Source: Kribbella catacumbae DSM 19601 (GTDB taxonomy: Bacteria; Actinomycetota; Actinomycetes; Propionibacteriales; Kribbellaceae). From it: 64,000 bases of DNA. The notes below the pieces were generated by a model. It was not told the DNA's origin. It saw only the letters and a list, made by a program, of their open reading frames with translations, and made no database searches. The DNA lies in contig NZ_AQUZ01000046.1 of the NCBI RefSeq assembly GCF_000372465.1, forward strand, positions 1 to 64,000, in the 5' to 3' direction. The position numbers and the translations under genes were made by a program. Shown piece by piece: positions 16,315-20,613 of the stretch; within the stretch, counting starts at the first letter, position 1; each line of letters opens with the position of its first letter.

Positions 16315-16920
16315 GTGACCGTTCCTACGCCGCGCCGGCCGATTCTGCCGGGTGCCAAGTTGTTCGAGTCGCTGCCTGGCGCGCACGACCCGGCCGCGGT
16401 GGCTGAGGTCGCGCACCGGACCGCGGAGCTGCTGGTCCGCGGCGCGCGCTCGACCGAGGACGCGGACGTGATCGCCCGGGTGGTGAAACTCGCCGACGAC
16501 TACGGTCTCGACGAGCTCGCCGACCTGTGGTCCGACGCGCCCGCGGACTCGCTGCCCGGCACGCTGTGGCGGCTCTATCTGCTGCGCTCGTGGGTGCACA
16601 GCAACTCCGAAGAGGTCTCCCGCGAGTACTCGAGCGGCCGCAAGTACGCCGAGGTGCACGCGGTGGTGGCCGGCGTCGCCGATCCGCCCGGCCCGACCGA
16701 GGTGCGGGACATGGTCGACGCCGTACTGCGTGGCGTCGCGACCGGTGATTTCGCGACCACCCTGGACCGCGCGGCGGCCTTTGCGCGGATCGTCGCGACC
16801 GGCCGGGCGCACCTGGCCGAGGACACCCACGACCAGGTCCGGTCGGCGTCCCGACTGGTCGAGATGGCCGACCAGTTACAGACCGCGGCGCGGACCGAAC
16901 GCGCCGGTCAACTCTGGTAG
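16315..16920 (+). CDS. Conserved hypothetical helical protein
   Basis: The 201-residue protein begins at GTG 16315 (VTVPTPRRPILPGAKLFESLPGAHDPAAVAEVAHRTAELLVRG). It is predicted to be almost entirely helical and acidic, with WRLYLLRSWVHSNSEEVSREYSSGRKYAEVHAVVAGV in the middle and a C-terminal helix ADQLQTAARTERAGQLW. No signal or membrane segment is present. It resembles conserved actinobacterial proteins of unknown role; I cannot assign a function. The long upstream open extension overlaps the divergent gene and is not used. Confidence 0.72.
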   Translation: MTVPTPRRPILPGAKLFESLPGAHDPAAVAEVAHRTAELLVRGARSTEDADVIARVVKLADDYGLDELADLWSDAPADSLPGTLWRLYLLRSWVHSNSEEVSREYSSGRKYAEVHAVVAGVADPPGPTEVRDMVDAVLRGVATGDFATTLDRAAAFARIVATGRAHLAEDTHDQVRSASRLVEMADQLQTAARTERAGQLW

Positions 16921-16997: not shown

Positions 16998-17027
16998 AGG
17001 ACAAGGGGTTTGGTCACCCGTTACACT
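16998..17027 (+). promoter_or_regulatory. Candidate promoter for the structured RNA
   Basis: A -35-like AGGACA (16998-17003) and a -10-like TACACT (17022-17027) are separated by 18 nt. The first strong stem of the predicted RNA starts at 17034, seven bases after the -10 element. The site lies between two convergent genes, where a promoter for an mRNA is not needed. Confidence 0.5.
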
Positions 17028-17033
17028 GTCAGA

Positions 17034-17130
17034 GGTGTCGGGCCGCGGTAGCCCCGGGTCCCAAATATAGCCGCTTCGAGCGGCCACGCGCCGTGAGGCG
17101 CTTCCCGGTCCGGCACCAACAATCCTCTTT
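17034..17130 (+). ncRNA. Candidate structured small RNA
   Basis: The RNA can fold into a three-way arrangement. An outer stem pairs GGTGTCGGGCCG (17034-17045) with CGGTCCGGCACC (17106-17117), twelve pairs including two G-U. Inside are GCCGCT-TCG-AGCGGC (17070-17084) and GCGCC-GTGA-GGCGC (17088-17101), the latter with a GNRA tetraloop. A pyrimidine-rich tract (ATCCTCTTTTGCTCCT) follows. The locus is in the 339-nt gap between convergent genes and has a plausible promoter. It does not match tmRNA, SRP RNA, 6S or RNase P motifs I know. The 3' end is uncertain. Confidence 0.5.
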
Positions 17131-17160
17131 TGCTCCTAGCGAGGGCTGACCCCGGCGGCC

Positions 17161-17252
17161 GCGGACCGCCACCACTACTGAACCCGACACCGATGCCTCG
17201 ACACGCCGAGGGAAGCGGTTGCTGGCGAGGTTTAGTAGTGGTGGCCGTCCGC
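17161..17252. repeat. Long inverted repeat (23-nt arms), probable bidirectional terminator
   Basis: Arm 17161-17183 and the reverse complement of arm 17230-17252 agree at 21 of 23 positions (core CGCCACCACTACT). The 46-nt loop contains a smaller hairpin, CCTCG..CGAGG. It lies directly before the end of the minus-strand protease gene (17260) and after the candidate RNA, so it may stop transcription from both sides. Confidence 0.65.
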
Positions 17253-17259
17253 CCGCTTC

Positions 17260-17943
17260 CTAGCGGATTCCGTAGAAACGCCGCAGCGTCTGCGTCACGG
17301 ACTTCCCGTTGGCGTCGGTCAGCTCGAGCTTCAGGCTCACGAAGTCACCGGCCGCCGTGTTGTCCACCGCCGCGACGACCTTCCGGCCATCGTTCTTCAC
17401 CGGTACGTCGACCCACGTCGCGCCATCGTCGTACGACGCCTGCACCCGGGCCGAGGTGAGCTTGCCGGGCCGGTACCACTCCCCCGCCGCGACCGTCACC
17501 GTGATCGGATAGTTCGCGACCCTGGGCGCGCGATCATTCGCGTCGACGGACAGGTCGTAGTCCGGGAAGAGCAGCGGCAGCGGCTTGCCCGCATCGGCCG
17601 ACGAGCTCTGCCAGCGCCAGCGAGTCTCGGCATCGGTCGGCGATTCCCAGACATACCCGTTCCGCTGCCAGTGGTGCAGCTTGTAGACGAGCTCGAGCTC
17701 ACTCGCCTCCGCCGGCACGTCCCAAAACCCTTGACCGAACCAGCCGTACTCGCCCAGCGAAACTCCGTCCGCGAGCAACTCGGTCGAACCCAGATCCAGG
17801 AACCCCTGCATCGAGAAGTGCCCGGCCTGCGTATCGGTCCAGCCCGGAAAGTTGCTCCACACGGTATTGCCCACCCTGCCCGCAGGGACCCTGGTCAGCC
17901 CGGTCGTCTGATCGCGCAGCATGCCCGGCCGCACCCCCGCCTT
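17260..17943 (-). pseudogene. C-terminal part of the S8 protease, separated by an in-frame TGA
   Basis: The reading frame continues in the same phase after the TGA at 17946-17944. KAGV leads into RPGMLRDQTTGLTRVPAGRVGN and about 220 further codons, ending LRRFYGIR. The content is beta-rich (VRVQASYDDGATWVDVPVKNDGRK) like the C-terminal domains of long secreted subtilases. No frameshift or other stop occurs in it, so the break is recent or is read through. A GTG at 17934 could nominally start a separate 224-residue protein, but it has no signal peptide and no visible ribosome site, so separate function is unlikely. Confidence 0.75.
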
Positions 17944-20613
17944 TCACCACGTCTCCGTGTGCCGGCTTCCCGGCCGGTACGCCGTCGCGGTCGACGTCAT
18001 CAAGGTCGCGAACGGCCACGACATGGAGTCGCTGTGTCCGACCATCTGGCTGACCTTCGTGCTCCTCTCCGCCGTGACGAGGTGCTCGACCCGGCCAGGC
18101 GCTGCGACCTGTCCGCGACTGCCTGTCGGGATCAGATTGAGGCTCCACGGCCGCCACACATCGACGTACTCCGAGTAGGTCGCGTTCTTTCCCGGCGTGT
18201 AGTAGGTGGCGTCGATCGAGGCGAGCTGACGGTCGCGCACCCGGTGAACAGTGCCACCCTTGACCTGCTTCGAGTGCGTGAACGCCAGGCTGTAGAGGTA
18301 CGGCGAGGGCGCTCCCTCGGGTGAGCCGAGTTGCCAGCCCTCGACCACCTCGTAGGTGCCGCGCTTGGCCTTCGATTTCGAGCCACCGAGGTAGACCGCC
18401 TTGACCGAGTTGCCGAAGGTTCGCGTGCTGGCCAGCACCCAGTCGTCGATCACCCGGCCGAAGGTGAGGCTGCCGCCACGGCGTACGGACGGGCGTTGGG
18501 TGGTCACCTTCGCCTCGGTTGCGCGGCGGGCGTCGTACGTGATGGTGGTGTTCTTGGTCAGCGTGATCTCGGGGTCGCCAAGGTAGGTATAGGACTCGAC
18601 TAGGCCGTCGGCGCTGGGTGTGGCGACGAGTGCCGACAGCGAGTAGGTGCCGGCCCGCAGGTGCAGAGTCGGGCTGATGCCGTCGAGGCCGGTGCCGTGG
18701 TTCGCGATGCTGTCCAGGTCGAAGACGTCCAGCGTGCTGATCGATGACGCTGGCTTGCCGTTGCGGTCGAGCACCTTGAAGGTGACGTCGACGTGCTGCG
18801 GTTCGAGGTAGAACCCAACAGGGGTGACGACCGTGCGGCCGTCGTTGCTGGTGGCAACCACTCGCGCGCTGACCGCGCCGTACAGGCCGTAGTCGAGCTT
18901 GGCGGCGGGATCGACGATCAGCGGAAGGTTCGCGGACTTGCCGGCCGGGATCGTCAGTGAGCTGGCGCCGAGTCTGGCCGCTGCCTTGGGCAACGGTTTG
19001 CCGTTGTTGCCGCGAACGTCGGCGGTGAATCGCAACGTCACCGGAGTCTTGCCGGAGTTCGTGTAGGTGAGTTGTTTGGTGGTCTGCTGCGATGGCTTGT
19101 GCGGCCAGGTGAAGGTGCCGAGGTCGACAGTGCCGGGACCGCTGACCTGCTGGCGGATCGCGTTGGCGATGTCGAGCTCGCCGGCGCCCTGGTCGTAGAT
19201 GCCGACCGTCGAGGCCGACCGCACCGTGCTCTGCAGCGCCGACTTCAACTGCTGACCGGTCCACGACGGATGCTGCTGCTTGAGAATCGCTGCCGCACCG
19301 GCGACGTGCGGCGTCGCCATCGACGTACCGCTCATGTCCGTGTACGCCGCATCGCCGCGCCCACCGGCCCTTGCCGCGGTGATGTCCACCCCCGGCGCAG
19401 CGATGTCCGGCTTGACGGTATGACTGCCCATCACTGGTCCGCGGCTGGAGAAGTCGGCAGTCGCCGAGGTCAGATCCGTCGCCGCCACCGTGAGTGCGGA
19501 TGCAGCGCAACCGGGGCTGGTAATCGTCTCGGCCGGTCCGTAAAGGTTGCCCGCAGCAACCACGATCAGTACGCCGGAACTCGCGCTGATCCGGTCGACG
19601 GCCGCTGCCATCGGGTCGGTGCAGTCGGCCGGCTCCGACGTACCGATACTCATGCTGATCACATCGGCGCCTTCAGCAACGGCCCATTCCATCCCGGCGA
19701 TGATCCACGACAGTTCGCCGCTCCCCGAGTCGTTCAGGACCTTGCCCGAGAGCAGTTGAGCGCCCGGCGCGACCCCCTTGTTCCGGCCGTCCGAGGCGAC
19801 GCCGCGACCCGCGACCGTCGACGACGTGTGCGTGCCGTGACCGTCGTGGTCCGCGGCATCGGGACTGTCGGTGAAGTTCTGTTGGGCCTTGACGGCACCG
19901 GCGAGGTCGGGATGCTCAGCGTCAACGCCGGTATCCAGTACTGCGACCGTGGCGCCCGAACCGTCGTACCCGGCCTGCCATGCCTGGGGCGCTCCGACGT
20001 ACGGGACGCTTTGGTCGAGGGTCTTGGTCACCTTCGCGTCCAGCCAGATCTTGTCGACCTCGGACTGCGCAGTGAGCGCTCTCCAGGTTTCCCGGGCGCG
20101 CTCCTTGCCGGTTCGCAACGCAGCGGCGCCGACGGAGGGGAGCGCTCTCGTCCTGGTCGAGCCGGCCGGGATCGCTTGCTGGGCCAGCGAACGGGTCGAG
20201 CGGTAGGTCGCGATGATCGGGATGCTCCGGGTGGACGCGTCGTCGTACCGCTGCCGGACCAGGGCGCTCACGTTGAACAGCGCCTTGTCGACCTTGCCGC
20301 GCTGGACGAGTTTCGCCGCGCTGTCCGGTACGACGTACAGGTCCTTGCCGACCGTGCGTGTTTCGTAGCCGGACTGGACCGGATCGATCGGGAGGAAGCG
20401 GACACTGCTCCGGCCCTGCCCGGCCGGAGTGAGCTGGACCTTGTCGCCGGTCAGCAACGTGATCGTCCTGGCGGCGTCGGCATCGGCTTGGACCGGCAGA
20501 GCCGGTGGGCCGGACTGGGCTTCGGGTTGTGGGATCGGCGCGGCCGTCGCCGGCACAAGGACTGCGGTCAGCAGCGCGGTCGCCGCCGCACCGACCAGGA
20601 ATCGGTGAACCAT
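17944..20613 (-). CDS. Secreted subtilisin-like (S8) serine peptidase, cut short by an in-frame TGA
   Basis: An 889-residue product begins MVHRFLVGAAATALLTAVLVPATAAP, a secretion signal, followed by a propeptide-like region. The catalytic triad is intact: Asp in VAVLDTGVDAEHPDLAG, His in DHDGHGTHTSSTVAG, Ser in GTSMATPHVAGAAAIL, with the oxyanion Asn region IVVAAGNLYGPA. Beta-rich accessory domains follow. The frame stops at TGA 17946-17944 after HTETW, yet homologous-looking sequence continues in phase to 17260, giving ~1118 codons in total. All catalytic parts precede the stop, so a truncated but possibly active enzyme may be made. ATG 20613 follows AAGGTGG. The gene is divergent to a LuxR-like regulator. 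Confidence 0.85.
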   Translation of the reverse strand: MVHRFLVGAAATALLTAVLVPATAAPIPQPEAQSGPPALPVQADADAARTITLLTGDKVQLTPAGQGRSSVRFLPIDPVQSGYETRTVGKDLYVVPDSAAKLVQRGKVDKALFNVSALVRQRYDDASTRSIPIIATYRSTRSLAQQAIPAGSTRTRALPSVGAAALRTGKERARETWRALTAQSEVDKIWLDAKVTKTLDQSVPYVGAPQAWQAGYDGSGATVAVLDTGVDAEHPDLAGAVKAQQNFTDSPDAADHDGHGTHTSSTVAGRGVASDGRNKGVAPGAQLLSGKVLNDSGSGELSWIIAGMEWAVAEGADVISMSIGTSEPADCTDPMAAAVDRISASSGVLIVVAAGNLYGPAETITSPGCAASALTVAATDLTSATADFSSRGPVMGSHTVKPDIAAPGVDITAARAGGRGDAAYTDMSGTSMATPHVAGAAAILKQQHPSWTGQQLKSALQSTVRSASTVGIYDQGAGELDIANAIRQQVSGPGTVDLGTFTWPHKPSQQTTKQLTYTNSGKTPVTLRFTADVRGNNGKPLPKAAARLGASSLTIPAGKSANLPLIVDPAAKLDYGLYGAVSARVVATSNDGRTVVTPVGFYLEPQHVDVTFKVLDRNGKPASSISTLDVFDLDSIANHGTGLDGISPTLHLRAGTYSLSALVATPSADGLVESYTYLGDPEITLTKNTTITYDARRATEAKVTTQRPSVRRGGSLTFGRVIDDWVLASTRTFGNSVKAVYLGGSKSKAKRGTYEVVEGWQLGSPEGAPSPYLYSLAFTHSKQVKGGTVHRVRDRQLASIDATYYTPGKNATYSEYVDVWRPWSLNLIPTGSRGQVAAPGRVEHLVTAERSTKVSQMVGHSDSMSWPFATLMTSTATAYRPGSRHTETW

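Follow-up and report, generated by a model that had tools for sequence, protein, structure and literature searches.

A standalone, structured RNA lies between two convergent genes in the window, the 64,000-nt stretch of the Kribbella catacumbae genome that we analysed, and it belongs to a family found throughout the class Actinomycetes. Small RNAs are a known kind of element, and the family itself is absent from Rfam 15; what is new is that it is class-wide, that its structure is proven by covariation, and that a SigR consensus stands upstream of many of its copies. Judged from comparison of the sequences, the RNA is standalone and structured, spans the class, has no conserved reading frame, and is preceded by SigR-type promoters in many lineages. 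We lean, with some reservation, towards reading it as a standalone noncoding sRNA gene that is linked to stress and acts in trans by antisense pairing through AGCCCCGGGYYYCA.

The two flanking genes were confirmed as a 201-aa open reading frame on the plus strand (16315-16917 plus stop; gene 16315-16920), which encodes an uncharacterised helical protein, and a subtilase gene on the minus strand (17260-20613). The subtilase gene contains an in-frame TGA at 17944-17946, and the equivalent stretch of a relative, L048, reads through (HTETWYQAGLRPG). Both boxes of the promoter-like pair described in the first-pass annotation are present on the plus strand, AGGACA at 16998-17003 and TACACT at 17022-17027, separated by an 18-nt spacer. 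This promoter, which is housekeeping-like and not of the SigR type, lies just 5' of the RNA fold and is conserved at the genus level across the type-1 copies of Kribbella, the type to which the window copy belongs. The usual transcription start point is 6-9 nt past a -10-type box. If this distance applies to TACACT, transcription begins with the first nucleotide of the outer stem, which would be the 5' end of the RNA.

On the downstream side, the window has no gene on the same strand after the RNA, which is the ground for rejecting a 5' leader, and the element is bounded by a promoter of its own and, among relatives, by a terminator. In two Kribbella loci (L006 and L007), a hairpin rich in G+C and then a run of T, that is, an intrinsic terminator, come directly 3' of the RNA, and a Streptomyces locus (L084) has in the same place a strong hairpin whose T run is short. 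Downstream hairpins of at least 9 pairs were found at 101 of 147 copies, compared with 63 in shuffled sequence, a moderate enrichment that we regard as supportive and not decisive. The pyrimidine-rich tail that had been noted is indeed present in the window, but it is not conserved in the relatives. At the position of the relatives' terminator, the window carries an imperfect palindromic repeat of ~105 nt (17151-17256; folding z -5.7), which has 12 further matches in its own genome at 85-90% and weaker matches in a few other Kribbella genomes; this repeat may end the window transcript. In character it resembles a MITE- or REP-like repeat.

The RNA core matched by the covariance models spans 17033-17119 on the plus strand (111.4 bits with model R2 and 97.3 bits with model R3) and is about 84 nt long, while the whole transcript is probably 120-140 nt. 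It is closed by an outer stem of 12 pairs, whose 5' strand (17034-17045) pairs with a 3' strand at 17106-17117. Inside the stem, the near-invariant sequence CCCCGGG (17052-17058), within AGCCCCGGGUCCCA, is unpaired and is our proposed interaction site. It is followed by hairpin 1 (17070-17084, GCCGCUUCGAGCGGC), which has a UNCGA-type loop and was recovered both by folding and in the covariance alignment, and by hairpin 2 (17088-17101, GCGCC-GUGA-GGCGC), so that the twelve-pair stem with two internal hairpins, one of them capped by a GNRA loop, was reproduced as first drawn. Folding energy alone is weak evidence for this structure, as expected for G+C-rich DNA: the whole 133 nt is moderately unusual (z -1.7, with 10 of 200 shuffles equally good) and the 96-nt core is more so (z -3.3, with 1 of 200). 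A peptide-coding gene was ruled out, since the reading frame is not conserved among 149 copies, of which only 15 hold a complete ORF of at least 15 codons within the RNA body.

The proof of the outer stem comes from covariation. In 25 near relatives, 97.9% of the cells pair, and there are 19 compensatory cells compared with 4.8 in shuffles. In an alignment of 84 copies, the compensatory cells number 252 compared with 64.6 in shuffles, each of the 12 pairs of the outer stem has changed in a compensatory way, and sliding the partner column by 1-3 positions destroys the signal. Loss of the paired bases in relatives, which would have spoken against the structure, was looked for, and the opposite was found. 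Because the 84-copy alignment had been fitted to the covariance model, we added an alignment-free test on 149 distinct copies, in which the mean energy was -32.1 kcal/mol for a copy's own arms, -23.5 kcal/mol for arms swapped between copies, and -21.0 kcal/mol for shuffled arms. An RNAalifold consensus of a mixed alignment, which paired CCGG with CCGG, was discarded; MAFFT had misaligned two subtypes, and the structure obtained from the 25 near relatives and a covariance-model alignment took its place. Among the 84 copies, the outer stem varies freely, whereas the two hairpins and CCCCGGG are nearly constant, with an exchange of C-G for U-A seen in hairpin 1. In the collected copies, hairpin 2 has no loop other than GAGA, GUGA or GCGA, and CCCCGGG is present in all of them except one, although these figures lean upward because the pattern used to collect the copies already demanded near forms of the hairpin and segment motifs. 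Since the hairpins and the segment hardly vary while the outer stem does, the pattern of substitution indicates that the outer stem is architecture and that the hairpins and the segment are recognised by something.

In a BLASTN search with a 331-nt query, every one of the 36 other Kribbella genomes covered had the element, as did members of two more families in the order, and sequence conservation was largely confined to the promoter and the fold; a contig of Kribbella sp. ALI-6-A carries the element. A degenerate hairpin pattern, run over named genomes, extended the range, the matches listed including Streptomyces, Kitasatospora, Nocardia, Gordonia, Rhodococcus, mycobacteria, Geodermatophilus, Cellulomonas, Isoptericola, Georgenia, Microbacterium, Phycicoccus, Nocardioides, Aeromicrobium, Micropruina and others. 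The covariance model R3, built from 84 copies, then gave matches in 232 of 395 genomes and 74 of 138 genera of the class. With stricter filters, a sample of the phylum gave matches in 22 of 26 class members, and all 270 genomes of other classes lacked one, an absence that under those filters does not amount to proof. Genomes that carry the RNA have one to three copies. Two local oddities were seen: in another family of the order (L035:1389-1659), two copies stand in tandem ~180 nt apart, each with a promoter of the GGAAT/GGAAC type, and in Kribbella genome G028 (L033:1325-1369) a fragment has both hairpins but no outer stem, either as a degenerate copy or as a hairpin pair in separate use. The RNA pattern had no match in IMG/VR, and a phage or mobile origin was set aside.

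The Rfam 15 covariance models returned nothing for the window or for relatives from several families, either at the gathering threshold or at relaxed ones, which agrees with the initial impression that no familiar RNA family fits. Together with the covariation, this supports the suggestion of a new structured RNA that is not a leader; the RNA is, moreover, class-wide and not confined to one genome. Two known actinobacterial RNAs were compared with the family. Ms1, a 6S-like RNA (scr3559 in S. coelicolor), is likewise class-wide, structured and noncoding; in S. coelicolor, however, it is about 230 nt long and maps to SCO3558-SCO3559 (PMC9130861), whereas the present family has a core of ~84 nt, a location at SCO2951-SCO2952 and a different fold, namely a three-way arrangement with two internal hairpins in place of the long Ms1/6S rod with its central bubble, which measures about 230 nt or more. 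The 6C RNA shares with the family an actinobacterial sRNA character, C-rich unpaired sequence and two stem-loops, but each of the two loops of 6C contains six or more C residues (PMC8388888), whereas here the loops read UNCGA and GNGA, and the sequence rich in C lies outside the hairpins. In the literature searched, which covered the field in part, we found no description of the spread of this RNA, of its fold or of a link to SigR.

The Streptomyces copies are flanked by a HelD-family gene and by one for a malic enzyme, which in S. coelicolor are SCO2952 and SCO2951, respectively (PMC8655204, PMC7494193). PMC8388888, citing Vockenhuber et al. 2011, lists scr2952 as an expressed S. coelicolor sRNA of unknown function, whose conservation extends to more than half of the Streptomyces examined, and states that it is in Rfam. 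Like the family member, scr2952 is small and belongs to the SCO2952 region, the comparison here being one of location and not of sequence or strand. The S. coelicolor member is therefore probably scr2952, an identity given by location only, as that source places scr2952 in Rfam, yet the Streptomyces locus had no match among the Rfam 15 models. If this is so, transcription of one member of the family is likely already known, and the family itself is not. The literature searched contained no description of the structure of scr2952, its regulator or its occurrence beyond Streptomyces.

To look at the control of the family, we compared the upstream sequences of all 149 copies. The motif GGAA[T/C]-N17-19-GTT was found just upstream of 71 of them, compared with 0.56 expected from shuffles. 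Its carriers include most copies from Streptomyces, Nocardia and mycobacteria, and it also occurs at the Gordonia, Rhodococcus, Geodermatophilus, Georgenia and Microbacterium copies. The motif corresponds to the SigR consensus promoter, GGAAT-N18-19-GTT (PMC9205884), and the match suggests that SigR drives these promoters. No sRNA member of the SigR/SigH regulon came up in the literature searched, which covered the subject in part. Unlike those copies, the window copy lacks the motif, as do all 28 type-1 copies of Kribbella when GGAAT-N18/19-GTT is sought. Kribbella has two copies, however: besides type 1, with AGGACA-N18-TACACT, there is a second type that carries the SigR-type motif in five of five cases and is followed by a terminator-like hairpin; in the genome of the window it lies at G000:C43:861-944. 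This second copy is upstream of the 16S rRNA gene wherever 16S is within reach of the locus. An rRNA leader was rejected, as the L032 paralogue, located ~650 nt before the 16S gene, comes with a promoter of its own and a terminator-like hairpin, and the paralogue in the window's genome also has both.

On this basis, the family is probably a widespread stress-response RNA, although about half of the copies, including that of the window, have no SigR-type motif, which counts against this explanation. In the lineages that bear the motif, SigR (SigH in mycobacteria), released under thiol-oxidative stress, would switch on the RNA; in Kribbella, the window copy would be constitutive and its paralogue induced by stress. 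The outer stem would close a rigid scaffold, and the two hairpins would either be bound by a protein or be packed on each other through docking of the GNRA loop. The exposed, C-rich AGCCCCGGGYYYCA would then act in trans, pairing with G-rich parts of target mRNAs at the ribosome-binding or early coding region, and lower their translation or stability. Antisense pairing is the commonest mode of trans-acting sRNAs, and we rank it first for this reason and because the segment stays single-stranded in the fold and almost never varies. When the window's own genome was scanned for stretches complementary to it, there were 7 matches, one of which is the gene itself, compared with 21 for a reversed-pattern control. 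Mimicry of the CCCGGGCC stretch of 16S rRNA was considered and dropped, as a 6-nt palindrome is too short to be meaningful.

The constancy of the hairpins fits protein binding as well as antisense action. A serious rival is therefore that the RNA is a scaffold or decoy, in which the hairpins and CCCCGGG bind a specific protein and alter its activity with no pairing to mRNA; this could be RNA polymerase, a factor of the ribosome or some RNA-binding protein, for which the ~200-aa protein encoded beside the RNA is a candidate. We consider this possible, given that the hairpin stems barely change beside a freely changing outer stem, that their loops are fixed as UNCGA and GNGA, and that complementary targets did not stand out in the genome. 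It also draws on the ~200-aa protein whose gene adjoins the RNA in the window. The window-type subtype almost always has this gene next to it. In Propionibacteriales and Micrococcales, the gene lies beside the RNA at 72 copies, and the protein, present as a single copy in 115 of the 395 class genomes, is accompanied by the RNA in 113 of those 115 (the exceptions are G454 and G748), compared with 232 of 395 genomes overall. However, Streptomyces and mycobacteria have the RNA without the protein, which therefore cannot be a universal partner, and its predicted structure, which is all-helical (pLDDT 83), resembles no known RNA-binding protein. The model gave no fold match, and the sequence has no relative in Pfam, NCBIfam or the PDB sequences.

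The same neighbourhood bears on the idea that the element acts in cis, either as part of the upstream gene, namely its 3' UTR or terminator, or as the leader of the downstream one. The RNA follows the ~200-aa protein gene directly and on the same strand at 64 of the 72 copies with that neighbour, but a conserved promoter of its own separates the two. The neighbours in Streptomyces, mycobacteria and Kribbella are entirely different (at the mycobacterial locus L090, a WhiB-type gene adjoins the RNA), the Kribbella paralogue stands alone, and nothing on the same strand follows the RNA in the window; we therefore find a cis-acting role improbable. That the conserved feature is a DNA-level inverted repeat, either a protein-binding site or a mobile element, and not an RNA is less credible still, for although both hairpins are perfect inverted repeats that have changed little, the outer-stem strands, ~60 nt apart, co-vary with G-U and U-G pairs included, which is the mark of RNA, the orientation behind the promoter is fixed, and genomes carry so few copies.

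Returning to the antisense sRNA as our preferred reading, class-wide actinobacterial sRNAs are few, Ms1 and 6C being the examples that we met, and the present family, whose fold is proven and whose regulator is predicted, spans Streptomyces, mycobacteria, Nocardia and Micrococcales. Its covariance model can be used to annotate many genomes. The family could also explain an old orphan transcript, scr2952, and the linked ~200-aa protein family offers a concrete candidate partner. Tentatively, this class-wide sRNA with a fold outside Rfam may be the conserved RNA branch of the SigR/SigH response to thiol-oxidative stress, joined in Propionibacteriales and Micrococcales by the ~200-aa protein as a dedicated partner in a new RNA-protein pair and divided in Kribbella between a constitutive and a stress-induced paralogue.
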